DNA of 64,000 bases from Arcobacter sp. (GTDB lineage Bacteria; Campylobacterota; Campylobacteria; Campylobacterales; Arcobacteraceae), in contig JAIFNA010000009.1 of assembly GCA_020048055.1 (NCBI GenBank), positions 124,001 to 188,000 on the forward strand, written 5' to 3'. The translations under genes and the position numbers were made by a program. Below the pieces are notes generated by a model. It had not been told where the DNA came from and ran no database searches. It worked only from the letters and a program-made list of their open reading frames with translations. Positions 43,245 through 49,246 of the stretch are shown piece by piece; positions within the stretch are counted from its first letter, which is position 1; each line of letters opens with the position of its first letter.

Positions 43245-43269
43245 GAAATACAATCAAATTTTGTATTTC
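43245..43269. terminator. hairpin at the end of the TPR gene
   Basis: GAAATACA (43245-43252) and TGTATTTC (43262-43269) are perfect complements around a nine-base loop that covers the stop codon of the TPR gene. No T-run follows on the minus strand, so termination is uncertain. Confidence 0.35.
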
Positions 43270-44834
43270 CCTTTTAGTTCATCAATTGTTTTCAATATAT
43301 CATCTACGCTCGTTTGAAGTTCACTTCCCATTTTTTTAATCTCATCTGGGAGCTCCTCTTCCATCAATGTCATCAACGCATACCAGATTGGTTTTGCTCT
43401 ATCTTTTAGTTGGTGCGTTTCATTTTCAAAATACTCTTTTGCTTTGTGATGTTGCCCTTTTGTGATAAGTAGATTTAGGTACTCTGTTATATCATCAATT
43501 TTTTCAAGTGCTTCATCGTATTTTAGACACTCATCAAATTTTTCATAACTTTTTGCAAACTCTTCATTCCATAAAAGTATAGTTGCTAGGGTATGTGTAT
43601 TTGCATAATTTTTCTTTGTATCGTAAGATTTTTGCACCAAGGAAAGTGCCTCTTTTGGTTCATTTGCGATTGTAAAATATAAATATGCCAAGTTATTTAA
43701 TGCTTTATTGTCTCCAGATTCTATTGCTAAAAGATAATATTTTTTGGCATTTTCATACTCTTTTAAGTCATTGTATAAATTCCCAAGATTAAATAACGCA
43801 TCATTATTTCCAGAATCTATTGCTAAAAGATAATATTTTTTGGCATTTTCATACTCTTTAAGTTCACTATATAAAAGCCCAAGATTAAATAATGCAAGCG
43901 TATTCCCAGTTTCTATTGCTAAAAGATAATATTTTTTAGCATTTTCATATTCTTTAAGTTCACTATATAAAAGCCCAAGATTATTTAAAGCACTATTGTT
44001 TCCAGATTCTATTGCTAAAAGATAATATTTTTTGGCATTTTCATTATCTTTTTTCTCTTTATAAAGCCAACCTTTAGCAAAGTAGAATTCTCCTTTTTGA
44101 TGATTTGTCAAATATGTTAATTTTAGAGCTTCATCAATAATAGATAGGCTATCATCAAATTTCTTATCAGAAAAGTGTTGAAGTATTATATTCCAGTAAT
44201 CATCAAATGTTTTTGTTGTTTTTACTTTACTGATTTTAGCCTCTTGTTCTATTGCATCTTTTTCTTCAGAAGTGTATTGTTCTTTTAATTGTTTAAACGC
44301 TTTTTCATGATTATTAATCTGGTCATTGTGTTTTTGTTCAAATGCTTTTCGAAGAGTATTAAACTCACTAGTTTTTTCATCTACTAACCTACTAAATTGT
44401 TCTTCTGATTTTTTTTGAAGTTCTTGGACGATTTCATTAAGTTGAGTTTTCCCATCTTTTTCTATCCATTCTTTTGTTGTATTTTGAGCTTCTTTCATAG
44501 CATCATCTTTTGTTTTTCTATAACCTAGCCAACCAGAGATTGCCAATCCAATAGTAATCAGCAAACCAAGTATCCCTGCAATTATCCCAAATCTATCTAC
44601 ACTTCCACTAATATCACCAATTCTTTTATCTAGGTTTTCATTATTTTTTGTGTTTTCTATATTTTTCTCTTTTGTGTCATCTGTATCATTTTTTAGCTCT
44701 TTTATTTCATTGTTGATGTTATCGATTTCTTTTTGAAGTTGTTCAATTTTGTACTCATTAATTGAGCGTATAGGCTCTGCATAAACGGATAAACTAAAAA
44801 TACATACGATAAAAACTACAAACAAATATCTCAT
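43254..44834 (-). CDS. membrane-anchored coiled-coil/TPR repeat protein
   Basis: A 526-residue protein; ATG at 44834 opens a signal peptide (MRYLFVVFIVCIFSLSVYA), whereas the ATG-less extension to 44870 adds unlikely residues. A coiled coil (about 25-65), one membrane helix (about 75-95, GIIAGILGLLITIGLAISGWLG), a second coiled coil (to about 200) and a TPR solenoid follow. The core repeats, ENAKKYYLLAIESGN-type, are exactly 32 residues long and near-identical. No enzyme motif is present; a scaffold role is likely. It is transcribed divergently from the eptA operon, with shared inverted repeats between them. Confidence 0.82.
   Translation of the reverse strand: MRYLFVVFIVCIFSLSVYAEPIRSINEYKIEQLQKEIDNINNEIKELKNDTDDTKEKNIENTKNNENLDKRIGDISGSVDRFGIIAGILGLLITIGLAISGWLGYRKTKDDAMKEAQNTTKEWIEKDGKTQLNEIVQELQKKSEEQFSRLVDEKTSEFNTLRKAFEQKHNDQINNHEKAFKQLKEQYTSEEKDAIEQEAKISKVKTTKTFDDYWNIILQHFSDKKFDDSLSIIDEALKLTYLTNHQKGEFYFAKGWLYKEKKDNENAKKYYLLAIESGNNSALNNLGLLYSELKEYENAKKYYLLAIETGNTLALFNLGLLYSELKEYENAKKYYLLAIDSGNNDALFNLGNLYNDLKEYENAKKYYLLAIESGDNKALNNLAYLYFTIANEPKEALSLVQKSYDTKKNYANTHTLATILLWNEEFAKSYEKFDECLKYDEALEKIDDITEYLNLLITKGQHHKAKEYFENETHQLKDRAKPIWYALMTLMEEELPDEIKKMGSELQTSVDDILKTIDELKGKYKI
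43720..44050. repeat. tandem 96-bp coding repeats in the TPR gene
   Basis: TCTATTGCTAAAAGATAATA recurs at 43720, 43816, 43912 and 44008, always 96 bases apart. The repeats are in frame (32 codons each) and encode successive TPR units. DNA identity is high over about 3.4 copies, which suggests recent expansion and possible copy-number variation. Confidence 0.9.
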
Positions 44835-44861
44835 AATAACCCTTGATTTACAAATACCCCA

Positions 44862-44867
44862 TTGTAA
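44862..44867 (-). promoter_or_regulatory. -10 box of the TPR gene
   Basis: On the minus strand TACAAT occupies 44867-44862, preceded by TGT, 28 bases before the ATG at 44834. Its -35 region would fall on the first inverted repeat at 44880-44899. Confidence 0.5.
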
Positions 44868-44879
44868 CACTTTTACGCT

Positions 44880-44927
44880 GACAAAAAATATTTTGTCAAT
44901 ACTGTTGACAAATTTATTTTTGTCAAA
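44880..44927. promoter_or_regulatory. two tandem inverted repeats (probable operators)
   Basis: Site 1 is TGACAAAA-AATA-TTTTGTCA (44880-44899). Site 2 is TTGACAAA-6 bases-TTTGTCAA (44906-44927). Each has perfect 8-bp arms, and their centres are 27 bases apart. They lie between the divergent TPR gene and the eptA operon. Site 1 overlaps the expected -35 of the TPR promoter; site 2 is about 60 bases before the eptA -10. This is the layout of a shared regulator-binding region. The regulator is not identified. Confidence 0.65.
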
Positions 44928-44976
44928 AGTGCAGTTGGATTTGTAACCATTTTGTTATTCATTTTTAATTCATCTA

Positions 44977-44982: not shown

Positions 44983-45016
44983 TCAATATTCCAAATATTT
45001 AAAAAAGGAATCTTGC

Positions 45017-46594
45017 TTGAAAAAAAATTTATTTCCACATTCGCAGCAAATTATTTTGCTATTTGCACTATTTTTCACTTTGTTTTCGAATTTTACATTT
45101 TTTTCCAAATTGATAGAATTCGCAAATATTGAAAATAACAATTTGATTATCTGGAGTGTTCCATTTGTATTGTTTGCTATTTTTGTACTGTTTTTGAATA
45201 TCGTTTTGCTCCTAACTTACAAATATAGTTTTAAAGCGATAATTTCATTTATTGTATTGGTGGCGGGGATTAGTGGCTATTTTATGAATAGTTTTGGGAC
45301 GATTATCGATAAAGATATGATTGTAAATGCAACACATACAAATACATTTGAAGCTTTTGGACTTATCACTGTAAAGCTTTTGGCTTATGTTTTATTTTTT
45401 GTCATTATCCCTATTTTTGCACTTTATGGAGTAAAAGTTAACTACCAAAGTTATCCAAAAGAGATTTTAAATAAACTTATCATTATTGCAATAAGTATCC
45501 TATTTATCGCGGTTTCTTATATGCTTTTGAGTAAAACATATAGTGCTTTTTTCAGAAACCACAAAGAGTTGAGATTTTATACGAACCCAACCTATCCAAT
45601 CTACTCTTTGGGGAAATTTATATATCTTCAAGTTGCTACTAAAAAAACACTAACACCAATCGCACTCGATGCTAACCTAACTTTATCAAATAAAAAAAGA
45701 TTATTTGTTTTAGTTGTTGGTGAAACAGCAAGAGGTGAAAATTTTTCACTAAACGGTTATGATGTAAAAACAAATCCATTAATGGAAGATTTATTACAAA
45801 ATAACCAAATTGTAAATCTACCAAATGTAACTTCATGCGGTACAGCAACTGCTGTATCGGTTCCTTGTATGTTTTCAAAATTTAGTAAAGATGAATACAA
45901 TGATGATAAACAATATTATGAAAATTTAGTTGATGTTGTTAATCGTGTTGGTATTAAAGTATTGTGGATTGATAATAATTCAGGTGGTTCTCAAGGTGTA
46001 GCAAAAAGAATCAAAGATGTAAAATATTTGGGTGGCGGTGAAGTTCTTGATGAAACTATGTTAAATGAATTGCAAAATGAAATTGATAAAACAAATAATG
46101 ATATGTTGGTTGTGTTGCATCAAGAAGGAAGTCATGGACCAACATATTTTAAAAGATACCCAGATAGCTTTAAAAAATTTACCCCAACTTGTGATACACA
46201 AGATTTGGAAAAATGCACACAACAAGAAATTGTAAATACCTATAACAACACAATTTTATATACAGATTATTTTTTAGATAAAACAATCAAACTTTTAGTG
46301 TCAAATGATGAGAAATACAAAACGGCACTTATTTATATGTCAGACCATGGTGAGTCTTTGGGGGAAAATGGGATTTATCTTCACGGTTTACCTTATGTTT
46401 TGGCTCCAGATACACAAACACGAATTCCTGCTATTTTATGGTTTGGAAAAGATTTACAAAAAGAAAAAATCAATCTACAAATGAAAAAAACAGCACACTA
46501 TTCACATGATAATCTATTTCATACAACACTTGGATTTTTTGGGATTAAAACTAAAGAATACAAAAAAGAACTAGATATTTTAAATTTAAATTAA
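45017..46594 (+). CDS. phosphoethanolamine transferase (EptA/EptC-like)
   Basis: A 525-residue protein with five N-terminal membrane helices (to about 170) and a periplasmic sulfatase-fold domain. E236 in VVGETARGENF binds metal, and T276 in SCGTATAVSVPCMFS is the expected nucleophile. HQEGSHGPTYF and SDHGESLGENG complete the zinc site. It moves phosphoethanolamine from phosphatidylethanolamine to lipid A; the Campylobacter enzyme EptC also modifies FlgG and glycans. The start is TTG at 45017, six bases after AAGGAA. Three cytochrome genes follow within a few bases, an unusual partnership. Confidence 0.9.
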   Translation: MKKNLFPHSQQIILLFALFFTLFSNFTFFSKLIEFANIENNNLIIWSVPFVLFAIFVLFLNIVLLLTYKYSFKAIISFIVLVAGISGYFMNSFGTIIDKDMIVNATHTNTFEAFGLITVKLLAYVLFFVIIPIFALYGVKVNYQSYPKEILNKLIIIAISILFIAVSYMLLSKTYSAFFRNHKELRFYTNPTYPIYSLGKFIYLQVATKKTLTPIALDANLTLSNKKRLFVLVVGETARGENFSLNGYDVKTNPLMEDLLQNNQIVNLPNVTSCGTATAVSVPCMFSKFSKDEYNDDKQYYENLVDVVNRVGIKVLWIDNNSGGSQGVAKRIKDVKYLGGGEVLDETMLNELQNEIDKTNNDMLVVLHQEGSHGPTYFKRYPDSFKKFTPTCDTQDLEKCTQQEIVNTYNNTILYTDYFLDKTIKLLVSNDEKYKTALIYMSDHGESLGENGIYLHGLPYVLAPDTQTRIPAILWFGKDLQKEKINLQMKKTAHYSHDNLFHTTLGFFGIKTKEYKKELDILNLN

Positions 46595-46605
46595 AAAGGG
46601 AAAAA

Positions 46606-47019
46606 ATGAAAAAAATTTTACTTAGTACAATAATCCTACTTACTTATAGTTACGGATATGAGCCATCGGTTGCTCTAAATACATATCTTTTGGAGCTAAG
46701 AACTGAGGCAAAAAAGATAAATCCAGCTTTTAATGGATTTAATCTTGAAGAGGGAAGAAAGATATTTTTTACAAAAAAAATAGTTGATGGTGGCGAAATT
46801 TCGTGTGTAACTTGTCATACAAAAAATTTAGCTTCAAATGGTCTAAATTCAAAAACAAACAAAATAATTGAGCCACTTTCACCAAATGCAAATAAAAATA
46901 GACTAAGTGATATTAAAGAGATGAAAAAATGGCTAAAAAGAAACTTTAATGATGTCTACAAAAGAGAAGGAACGGCAGTTGAAAAAGGTGATGTTTTAAC
47001 ATTTATATCAAAAAATTAG
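46606..47019 (+). CDS. monoheme cytochrome c, SHP-like (DUF1924)
   Basis: A 137-residue exported cytochrome with signal peptide (1-17) and one heme site C67-x2-C70-H71 (CVTCH). The C-terminal part (PLSPNANKNRLSDIKEMKKWLKRN, EGTAVEKGDVLTF; shown in pieces) follows the pattern I recall for the sphaeroides heme protein SHP, whose sixth ligand is an Asn that leaves on reduction so O2 or NO can bind. N113 or N115 in KRNFNDV is the candidate. The disulphide cysteines of SHP appear to be replaced. It is followed by a DHC and a cytochrome b561, the known SHP operon partners. Confidence 0.82.
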   Translation: MKKILLSTIILLTYSYGYEPSVALNTYLLELRTEAKKINPAFNGFNLEEGRKIFFTKKIVDGGEISCVTCHTKNLASNGLNSKTNKIIEPLSPNANKNRLSDIKEMKKWLKRNFNDVYKREGTAVEKGDVLTFISKN

Positions 47020-47028
47020 GAGAAAAAG

Positions 47029-47496
47029 ATGAAAAAAATAGTAACACTTGGATTTGTTTTAACAACAATTGTAGCTTTAAATGGGGATGATTTTAGAATA
47101 GTTCAGCCTTCAAATAAGCTTTATATTAAAGAGTGTGGAAGTTGTCATATGCCATTTTCACCATCACTTTTAAACCAAAAAGGATGGGTTAAAATGGTTG
47201 ATAATCTTGGGGTTCATTTTGGAACTGATGCTTCACTAGAACCACTTGATACAAAAACAATCAAAGATTATTTAGTTCAAAATAGTAACAATGGGATAAA
47301 AAATCCAACAAATGAGATCGCTATCACAAAAACACCTTGGTTTAAAAGGGAACATAGAAAAATCAAAGATGAAACAATAAAACATGAAAAAATTAAAACT
47401 CTTTCAAATTGTGTAGCGTGTCATAGTGGAGCAAATAAGGGAAATTTTGAAGAAGATGAGATAAAAATCCCTGGACTTAGTTGGTTTCACCACTAA
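47029..47496 (+). CDS. diheme cytochrome c (DHC)
   Basis: A 155-residue exported cytochrome with signal peptide (1-17). Heme sites are C36-x2-C39-H40 (CGSCH) and C128-x2-C131-H132 (CVACH); HFGTDAS (63-69) lies between them. This is the DHC family, which in phototrophs reduces SHP. GGAG precedes the ATG. Its stop overlaps the ATG of the next gene by one base. The same fold is repeated in the C-terminal part of that next gene. Confidence 0.88.
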   Translation: MKKIVTLGFVLTTIVALNGDDFRIVQPSNKLYIKECGSCHMPFSPSLLNQKGWVKMVDNLGVHFGTDASLEPLDTKTIKDYLVQNSNNGIKNPTNEIAITKTPWFKREHRKIKDETIKHEKIKTLSNCVACHSGANKGNFEEDEIKIPGLSWFHH

Positions 47497-48560
47497 TGAA
47501 AACACTACTTTTTTCATACACAACTAGAATTTTACATTTTTTGTTTGCTTGTTTTGTCCTTTTGGCTTACCTTTTAAGTGATACAAATTCTTTACTTTGG
47601 TTGCATTCTTTATTTGGAATTTGTGTTTTATTGATTGTTGGTTTGCGAATTTTTTGGTTTTTTGTGAGTGAAGATGGGGCTAAAATATCTTCATTTGATT
47701 TGAAATTATCGTCATTAAAAAATTATGTAACAAACTATTTTTCATTTAAAAATGAAAAAATAAGAAACCCAGCTGCTTCATATTCTGCAATTTTGATGTG
47801 GATTTTGGCAGTTTTAGTTTCATTTGTTGGACTTATTTTAATTGGTGCAAAATATGGAAGTGGAATTTTTGGTTATCTTTTTTTATTGGATATTGATAAA
47901 CATCTAATAAAAGAAGCTCATGAATTATTTGGAAATCTCCTTATTTTGGTAGCTTTTTTCCATGTAGCTGGTGTTTTGGGTGATAACTTTTTAAAAAGAA
48001 GTGATATTGCAAAAGCTATGTTTAATGGAGAGATGAAAGTTGCGCAAGATAAAAAAATTTCAACTTTTAAAAACTCATCATTGATTGCTTTTATAGTTTT
48101 ATCTCTCACTGTTTTGTTTGGTTTTTATTTGGGTATGGTTAAAACAAATATATTTTTTAATAGTGAAATCTCACACCAAAATTATAAACTTTTAGCCCCA
48201 ACTATGGTTGGTGAATGTAAAGAGTGCCATTTGTTTTATCCACCAAATGTTACATCTTTGGAGACTCAGATGAATATTTTGAATGATTTACCAAACCATT
48301 TTGGAACTGACGCATCTTTAGACAATGAAACACTAGTAAAAATTATAAATGAAACAAAAAAATTAGCGCCACAAAAATCACCATTTAGGTTTGAAGATTT
48401 AGCAAACAGTGAAAGTATTGTTAAAACAAATCGTTGGAAACATCTCCATGAGGAGTTTGATGATGGTTGGTTTATGGAAAATAAAGTGAAAAAAACCAAC
48501 TGCAAAGCTTGTCATATAAATTTTGAAGATGGCTCAATAAATCCGTTTGAGCTGAAATAG
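47496..48560 (+). CDS. cytochrome b561 fused to a diheme cytochrome c domain
   Basis: A 354-residue protein; ATG at 47496 shares one base with the preceding stop, so the in-frame GTG upstream is rejected. Residues 1-215 form a di-b-heme cytochrome b561 with candidate heme ligands H14 (RILHF), H37 (WLHSLFG), H142 (EAHELFG) and H156 (AFFHVAG). Residues about 230-354 are a periplasmic DHC domain with CKECH (241-245) and CKACH (336-340), and the HFGTDAS motif of the separate DHC at 268-274. It would carry electrons from the quinone pool through its own DHC domain to the soluble cytochromes. Confidence 0.88.
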   Translation: MKTLLFSYTTRILHFLFACFVLLAYLLSDTNSLLWLHSLFGICVLLIVGLRIFWFFVSEDGAKISSFDLKLSSLKNYVTNYFSFKNEKIRNPAASYSAILMWILAVLVSFVGLILIGAKYGSGIFGYLFLLDIDKHLIKEAHELFGNLLILVAFFHVAGVLGDNFLKRSDIAKAMFNGEMKVAQDKKISTFKNSSLIAFIVLSLTVLFGFYLGMVKTNIFFNSEISHQNYKLLAPTMVGECKECHLFYPPNVTSLETQMNILNDLPNHFGTDASLDNETLVKIINETKKLAPQKSPFRFEDLANSESIVKTNRWKHLHEEFDDGWFMENKVKKTNCKACHINFEDGSINPFELK

Positions 48561-48577
48561 TTTCTTGATTAATTATT

Positions 48578-48617
48578 TATAAAAATAATAAAAATTAGCC
48601 CATTTTATGGGGCTAAT
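48578..48617 (-). terminator. intrinsic terminator of the pdxH operon
   Basis: On the minus strand ATTAGCCC (48617-48610) pairs with GGGCTAAT (48601-48594) around an eight-base loop, followed by TTTTTATTATTTTTAT. The pdxH stop codon lies in the loop. This is one of the clearest terminators in the window. Confidence 0.82.
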
Positions 48618-49246
48618 CTATTTAAATTCCAATTTCTTGATTCATCTAAACTATACTCAAATCTATCATGAAGCCTATCTTTTCCACCTTGCCAAAACTC
48701 TATCACTTCGGGCTTTATGATATATCCACCCCAAAAAGATGGAAAAGGAATCTCACCGTTTATAAATTTCTCTTTTATCTCATTAAATTTTGCTTCAAGT
48801 AAACTTCGTGAGCTTATAATTTCACTTTGATGAGATACCCACGCTCCAATTTGACTCCCTTTTGGGCGACCTAAAAAATATTTTAAAGAATCTGTTTTAC
48901 TAATTTGCTCAATACTCCCTTCAATTTTCACTTGTCTTTCAAGTGGAAGCCATGCAAAGTGCATTGCACATTTTGGATTTTCCTCTATTTGACGTGCTTT
49001 TTTACTTTTATAGTTTGAAAAAAATACAAACCCTTTTTCATCATAAGATTTTAAAAGCACTGTTCTAATTGATGGTATTTTTGAGTGTCCAACGGTAGCT
49101 AGACTAAAGGCATTTGGTTCAAGTATCTTTCCATCAATTGCTTGATTAAACCAAAGTTCAAATTGTTTTATCGGGTTTTTGTCCATATCACTTTTATGCA
49201 AACCCTTTGTGGTGTATTCTTGCCGCATGGCTTCTAAATTTGCCAT
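48605..49246 (-). CDS. pdxH: pyridoxamine 5'-phosphate oxidase
   Basis: A 213-residue FMN enzyme of full length. Motifs include AFSLATVG, SIRTVLLKSYDEKGFVFFSN, CAMHFAWLPLERQVKIEG, SQIGAWVSHQS and the C-terminal signature EFWQGGKDRLHDRF followed by WNLNRLAP. It oxidises pyridoxine- or pyridoxamine-phosphate to pyridoxal phosphate. It starts three bases after the TAXI gene and is the last of a six-gene operon that ends in a strong terminator. Confidence 0.96.
   Translation of the reverse strand: MANLEAMRQEYTTKGLHKSDMDKNPIKQFELWFNQAIDGKILEPNAFSLATVGHSKIPSIRTVLLKSYDEKGFVFFSNYKSKKARQIEENPKCAMHFAWLPLERQVKIEGSIEQISKTDSLKYFLGRPKGSQIGAWVSHQSEIISSRSLLEAKFNEIKEKFINGEIPFPSFWGGYIIKPEVIEFWQGGKDRLHDRFEYSLDESRNWNLNRLAP

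Follow-up and report, generated by a model that had tools for sequence, protein, structure and literature searches.

Operons for the monoheme cytochrome c SHP (DUF1924) have been described in more than 40 species, and electrons have been proposed to flow in these systems from quinol via a cytochrome b (CytB) and diheme cytochromes c (DHCs) to SHP (Meyer et al. 2010, PMC2909971). The same study reported a chimera of CytB with the membrane DHC (CytB/mDHC) in R. sphaeroides, C. fetus, A. butzleri, and W. succinogenes as well as a distinct sensor, SK3, in the SHP operons of C. fetus and A. butzleri, and it mentions neither eptA nor lipid A. The nearest record of a cytochrome b beside the phosphoethanolamine transferase gene eptA is a cytB-pepSY-eptA-dgkA environment in Vibrio (PMC12064563), where eptA-dgkA operons controlled by RstAB/CarRS are also known (PMC12064563, PMC10433830). 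No paper with both "cytochrome b561" and "eptA" was found in the literature searched. Here, we analyze a 64 kb window of an Arcobacter sp. genome (contig JAIFNA010000009.1; all positions refer to this window and its + strand, and the genome it belongs to was searched by pattern) in which eptA directly precedes the genes of an SHP heme chain at 45017-48560. We consider it fairly probable that these four genes form one operon of an envelope-stress regulon under an OmpR-type pair of response regulator and sensor kinase (RR-A/SK-A), which suggests a previously undescribed joint envelope-stress response of eptA and the heme chain.

All four genes of the open reading frame list lie on the + strand: eptA (45017..46594; 525 amino acids with a TTG start that is also used in the sister species G006), the SHP gene (46606..47019; 137 amino acids), a free, soluble diheme cytochrome c (sDHC; 47029..47496; 155 amino acids), and a cytochrome b561-DHC fusion of the CytB/mDHC type (47496..48560; 354 amino acids). 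A previous sequence-only reading of this locus had placed the genes 9 to 11 bases apart or overlapping, and this spacing holds with gaps of 11 bp (eptA/SHP) and 9 bp (SHP/DHC) followed by a 1-nt overlap between DHC and b561-DHC. For the fusion gene, ATG 47496, 1 nt inside the DHC stop codon, is a more likely start than TTG 47481. The four-gene operon stands alone because its neighbors, named from sequence, are a divergent TPR gene with mfd on the left and a convergent pdxH on the right. Like the published SHP operons, it carries SHP, a free DHC, and a b561-DHC fusion with SHP preceding CytB, and it differs from them in starting with eptA and in having no regulator genes (PMC2909971). Neither the SHP-DHC-b561 trio nor the fusion nor the double DHC is new; the free and fused DHC copies that the sequence-only reading had singled out are indeed present, albeit in an arrangement known from R. 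sphaeroides, C. fetus, and A. butzleri and thus not unusual. By contrast, the link to eptA is undescribed in that survey.

Judging from profiles and alignments, the first gene encodes an EptA-type transferase for which lipid A is the predicted acceptor. Its product matches EptA_B_N (2e-39) and Sulfatase (8.5e-62), scores above the cut-off of the EptA family model NF028537 (604 bits vs. 500), and aligns over its full length with neisserial 5fgn, including the motifs VGETAR, SCGTAT, SDHGES, and GSHGPTY; it is the sole EptA_B_N gene of the window genome. The strict enterobacterial EptA equivalog PRK11598 stayed below its cut-off (497 bits vs. 660), and mobile colistin resistance (MCR) was set aside because all its models were far below cut-off (best 387 vs. 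1075). SHP hits the DUF1924 profile at 1.7e-30, contains one heme site (CVTCH), and matches solved SHP 1dw0 (4e-12) and cytochrome c'' 1e8e (1.5e-12). Its KWLKRNF segment aligns with W84/N88 of R. sphaeroides, and the Trp84 and Asn88 equivalents are kept in all aligned relatives. The Cys89-Cys97 disulfide of most SHPs is missing from the alignment, where a Phe and a non-Cys residue take its place. Since the SHPs of C. fetus, A. butzleri, and W. succinogenes likewise lack it (PMC2909971), the disulfide does not define this branch, and retention of the Asn ligand without the disulfide is what the window SHP has in common with published Campylobacterota SHPs. By analogy, it may bind O2 or NO upon reduction when the Asn ligand leaves.

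The free DHC matches its profile at 1.4e-31 as well as the solved structures 3u99 and 2fw5, and the fusion combines Ni_hydr_CYTB (2e-11) with DHC (1e-15). CXXCH motifs in SHP, DHC, and the fusion (1+2+2) bear out the five c-type hemes counted earlier, and two b hemes in the b561 part would fit its four His residues that are invariant in 28/28 fusions. The set of an SHP operon is complete, i.e., it comprises an adjacent DHC and a quinol-type cytochrome b with four heme His.

To place this arrangement, we surveyed 397 Campylobacterota genomes with a completeness of at least 90%, 86 of which have DUF1924. Proximity was tallied by hand from coordinates, with "close" meaning within ~5 kb. On this basis, eptA is close to SHP in 19 of the 25 Arcobacteraceae genomes with both genes, including 12/12 in one genus, and in none of the 38 genomes of other Campylobacterales families holding both (Fisher ~4e-11, computed with 37 instead of 38). 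The linkage in Arcobacteraceae exceeds chance and recurs in two deeply separated SHP clades, with the window SHP falling into the divergent clade of its genus. None of the three outcomes that the sequence-only reading had named as refuting was seen for the window: the linkage also occurs in other genomes, no separate promoter is evident, and the 46606 product has the profile of DUF1924/SHP. Sister G006 has the locus order of the window in two stretches, mfd through eptA and SHP through pdxH, and its eptA is interrupted by a contig gap. For G004 and G005, neither eptA, SHP, nor RR-A was found, a co-absence that is in line with a common regulon. On a Nitrospiraceae contig of a metagenome-assembled genome (MAG; L050), SHP-DHC-b561-DHC occurs in the same order, which suggests interphylum transfer or mis-binning.

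A common arrangement in the family is eptA, PAP2, dgkA, SHP, DHC, b561-DHC, a CpxP/Spy-like small protein, a response regulator, and a kinase. The small protein has LTXXQ matches in 12/14 members and hits solved Spy at 5e-9, and one of these loci has a kinase that exceeds the ArsS-family cut-off. At L042:4761-12259 and other Aliarcobacter loci, eptA-PAP2-dgkA lies immediately 5' of SHP-DHC-b561 so that lipid A/lipid-recycling genes are joined to the cytochromes. The window operon itself is without PAP2, dgkA, the CpxP/Spy-like protein, and the ArsS-type pair. As an ortholog of the ArsS-type kinase, the window genome offers a best match of 37% over the catalytic part only, and none is claimed.

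Two different promoter elements accompany these genes across the family. A TGTMAA-N5-TGTMAA repeat is found at 24 of the 29 SHP promoters with an ArsS-type pair downstream (L021-L059), compared to 1/118 control upstream regions and 0/5 SHP genes without such a pair; it thus marks SHP promoters where a CpxP/Spy-like protein and an ArsS-type pair come after the operon. Family eptA promoters instead show a TTMAY-N6-TTMAY repeat with a -10 box ~10 bp later, and scores of at least 12/13 are reached by 12/16 eptA promoters vs. 16/126 controls (p 7e-7). We also considered this eptA-type box at SHP promoters family-wide, where it is not enriched (p 0.94) and proved specific to the window genus. Because eptA and SHP of most Arcobacteraceae are neighbors with different promoters and different boxes, the single eptA-SHP operon is a derived form of the window genus.

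Within this genus, SHP has been rewired and bears an eptA-type element. In the window, the predicted operator is a TTCAT-N6-TTCAT direct repeat (44958..44973, + strand) that lies 59 bp upstream of the eptA start and occupies the -35 position, with a putative -10 box CAATAT 10 bp further 3' (44984..44989, + strand). The spacing is the same as in relatives (9-10 bp), and the window box is weaker than theirs. The eptA-type repeat also precedes eptA of sister G006 (L079) and SHP in G003, G006, and G007, and TTCAT-N6-TTCAT stands ahead of a Trx-DUF4266-DUF3570-ApbE-RR-SK operon, hereafter RR operon, in the window genome and G003. Over 92 kb of congener loci, the strict repeat was observed 6 times vs. 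0.32 expected, every time at eptA, SHP, or RR operons, and it was predicted and then found upstream of four more RR operons (G001, G002, G007, and a second copy in G003), of which that of G002 is weakest. Furthermore, a matrix built from ten non-window sites ranks position 44958 first in the 64 kb (15.7 bits, next 13.3). The strict operator has only three hits in the window genome, i.e., at the eptA-SHP operon, at the RR operon, and inside hemE; the last was taken as chance, and two further loose hits both lie inside open frames. A generic sigma-70 promoter scan gave hits no more numerous than in shuffles. The predicted regulon defined by TTCAT-N6-TTCAT is new here. In G003 (L037, L017), the SHP gene has an in-frame TAA, yet the operator is still upstream; SHP is convergent there to a Trx-DUF4266-DUF3570-ApbE-eptA-RR-SK operon with a kinase broken in two.

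RR-A (L085:5359-6036, minus strand) combines receiver and Trans_reg_C domains of the OmpR/PhoB type, and we predict it to be the binder of the direct repeat with its 11 bp period. It is 76% identical to the G003 regulator that directly follows eptA. In G003, eptA sits inside the RR operon; a second RR operon copy in G003 is without eptA (L101). The RR operon most likely is autoregulated, with TTCAT-N6-TTCAT preceding all RR-A operons that were examined from this genus. Its first part, in which DUF3570 of the window genome shows two SGAS motifs, is a flavinylation set (Trx-DUF4266-DUF3570-ApbE is a known extracytosolic flavinylation cluster, PMC8238504), so the regulon would also include a flavin/thiol system.

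Taken together, we propose that an envelope signal activates RR-A, which is encoded elsewhere in the genome behind Trx-DUF4266-DUF3570-ApbE. RR-A would bind TTCAT-N6-TTCAT in lieu of a -35 box and turn on its own operon together with a presumably co-transcribed eptA-SHP-DHC-b561. EptA would then add phosphoethanolamine to lipid A while, in parallel, electrons could pass from quinol to b561, mDHC, sDHC, and SHP as suggested by studied homologs, in which the Asn ligand leaves on reduction and O2 or NO can bind. Operon layout, gene families, conserved linkage, and the shared operator were examined at the sequence level, whereas RR-A as the binder, co-transcription, the electron path, the signal, and the purpose are inferred. 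The proposal of the sequence-only reading that redox chain and envelope modification answer to the same signal gains support, by inference only, because the operator is shared by the eptA-SHP and RR operons (and by SHP alone in three congeners) and was found again ahead of four more RR operons; the signal itself is a guess. Our best guess is metal or oxidative envelope stress, with metal, peroxide, or NO as candidates. Several hints point to metal: CopR/CopS is the family nearest to RR-A/SK-A, though below cut-offs, SHP operons elsewhere adjoin copper genes, an SHP operon is induced on pyrite together with an iron efflux gene, and Pseudomonas eptA is induced by zinc via ColRS.

Several points weigh against this model, beginning with its reliance on sequence throughout. 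In draft genomes, some linkage may lie at contig ends. Three operator sites were initially spotted by eye, so that the later sites alone count as tests, and the window's CAATAT is a poor match to TATAAT. RR-A and SK-A do not reach the curated CopR/CopS cut-offs (TIGR01387/TIGR01386; 214 vs. 279 and 207 vs. 293). Furthermore, sister G006 has the operators and no RR-A ortholog was found in it (best 34%; its MAG is 92% complete), G002 encodes a relative of RR-A (59%) but neither eptA nor SHP, and SHP of most Arcobacteraceae is under another box, the TGTMAA repeat.

The strongest competing explanation, unlikely in our view, is co-regulation without shared purpose, i.e., that eptA and SHP are separate targets of the regulator, brought together as neighbors or in one operon by chance rearrangement, and serve different stresses that merely have a sensor in common. 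It would account for the separate promoters and separate regulator pairs of eptA and SHP in most Arcobacteraceae and for the location of eptA away from SHP in G007 and G001, but the two genes lie close in 19/25 genomes and do so in two SHP clades that are deeply separated, which is more than drift would suggest. Slightly less probable still is that an OmpR-type regulator other than RR-A binds the operator and that the sites at RR operons reflect higher-level control: OmpR-type sites are short and alike, the window genome has many such regulators, and G006 has sites but no RR-A that we could find, while autoregulation would predict just what is seen in the genus, an operator upstream of each RR-A operon examined. 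A biochemical coupling in which SHP serves as the oxygenase of an amine, with EptA's phosphoethanolamine (or ethanolamine) as substrate or linked product, is very improbable because SHP, although it shares this operon with eptA, binds O2 and organic amines, and was proposed as an oxygenase of unknown substrate (PMC2909971), is widespread without nearby eptA (all 38 other-family genomes holding both) and has NO dioxygenation as its only cited activity.

What SHP does has been a question ever since the protein was discovered: its ligands include O2, NO, and amines, and the sensors encoded in its operons differ. A tie to eptA, whose product is measurable, and one predicted operator provide a concrete regulon for testing SHP function. 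They also suggest that Arcobacteraceae modify lipid A and direct periplasmic electron flow within a single stress program.

The membrane DHC of relatives shows a further peculiarity. Of the 28 Arcobacteraceae loci that fall into the other SHP clade, 17 are split (L021, L023, L026-L028, L030, L032, L045, L055, L056, L112-L114, L118-L121): b561 and DHC are +1 out of frame, with the break at one identical place, TAT-CCC-[T/A]CC (site TATCCCTCC), immediately behind the first heme motif of DHC. In 16/17 split genes, the zero frame ends no more than 15 residues after this motif, and a one-base skip restores the sequence of fused relatives. Beyond the shift, conservation of the DHC part is not lower than that of b561 (0.71 vs. 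0.63 among split and 0.54 vs. 0.42 among fused genes). Just upstream, a 7-bp hairpin (GAGTGTG-N8-CAYACTC) is present in 17/17 split vs. 4/31 fused genes. Of the Pro codons, 7% are CCC, and the zero-frame codon that follows is a rare one, TCC accounting for 3% of Ser codons and ACC for 9% of Thr codons. The split/fused label requires 7 changes on the tree, which fits one gain and several losses of the site. CCC_[U/A]CC is thus probably a conserved programmed +1 ribosomal frameshift, and if confirmed it would be a rare case in a cellular bacterial gene. The split of b561 in L024 (G055) was not treated as programmed since this frame break is absent from the related L125 and L127. More tentatively, a dedicated envelope regulon might join phosphoethanolamine addition to lipid A, the quinol-to-SHP chain, and an ApbE-flavinylated periplasmic redox system under one two-component switch. 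On this reading, relatives would produce the membrane DHC domain only after the +1 shift, so that translation may determine how their electron chain is composed.

Around the window operon, the divergent neighbor (43254-44870, - strand) codes for a membrane protein in which several TPR-like repeats (ELKEYENAKKYYLLAIE) are almost identical; their number could vary among strains. Between this gene and eptA, a perfect inverted repeat, TTTGTCAATACTGTTGACAAA (44892-44912), occurs once in the genome; it was set aside since it is not seen upstream of the sister's eptA. Where b561-DHC and pdxH converge, a hairpin between their ends (48592..48619, not assigned to a strand) is terminator-like for the minus strand with a modest z of -1.4.

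The reported CCC_UGA/CCC_UCC sites of Listeria phage, where CCC_UCC is a known +1 site (PMC5009743), and prfB (PMC3711429) share with the relatives' site the slip on CCC before a rare codon. This one differs in lying in a cellular cytochrome gene and in having a conserved upstream hairpin and no Shine-Dalgarno-like stimulator. It is also absent from the window's b561-DHC gene, which reads in frame through the junction as TAT-CCA-CCA. The operon carrying RR-A/SK-A contains exactly the Trx-DUF4266-DUF3570-ApbE set of flavinylation clusters (PMC8238504), but in the window genome a two-component pair accompanies this set, and the predicted operator connects it with eptA and SHP. As in Vibrio, eptA is (here by prediction) under an OmpR-type pair, and a cytochrome b adjoins eptA in one Vibrio environment (PMC12064563, PMC10433830). 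In contrast to these operons, for which no SHP or DHC is reported, the window operon is without dgkA and has a TTCAT repeat as its predicted operator instead of the GACA-N6-TACA of Vibrio.

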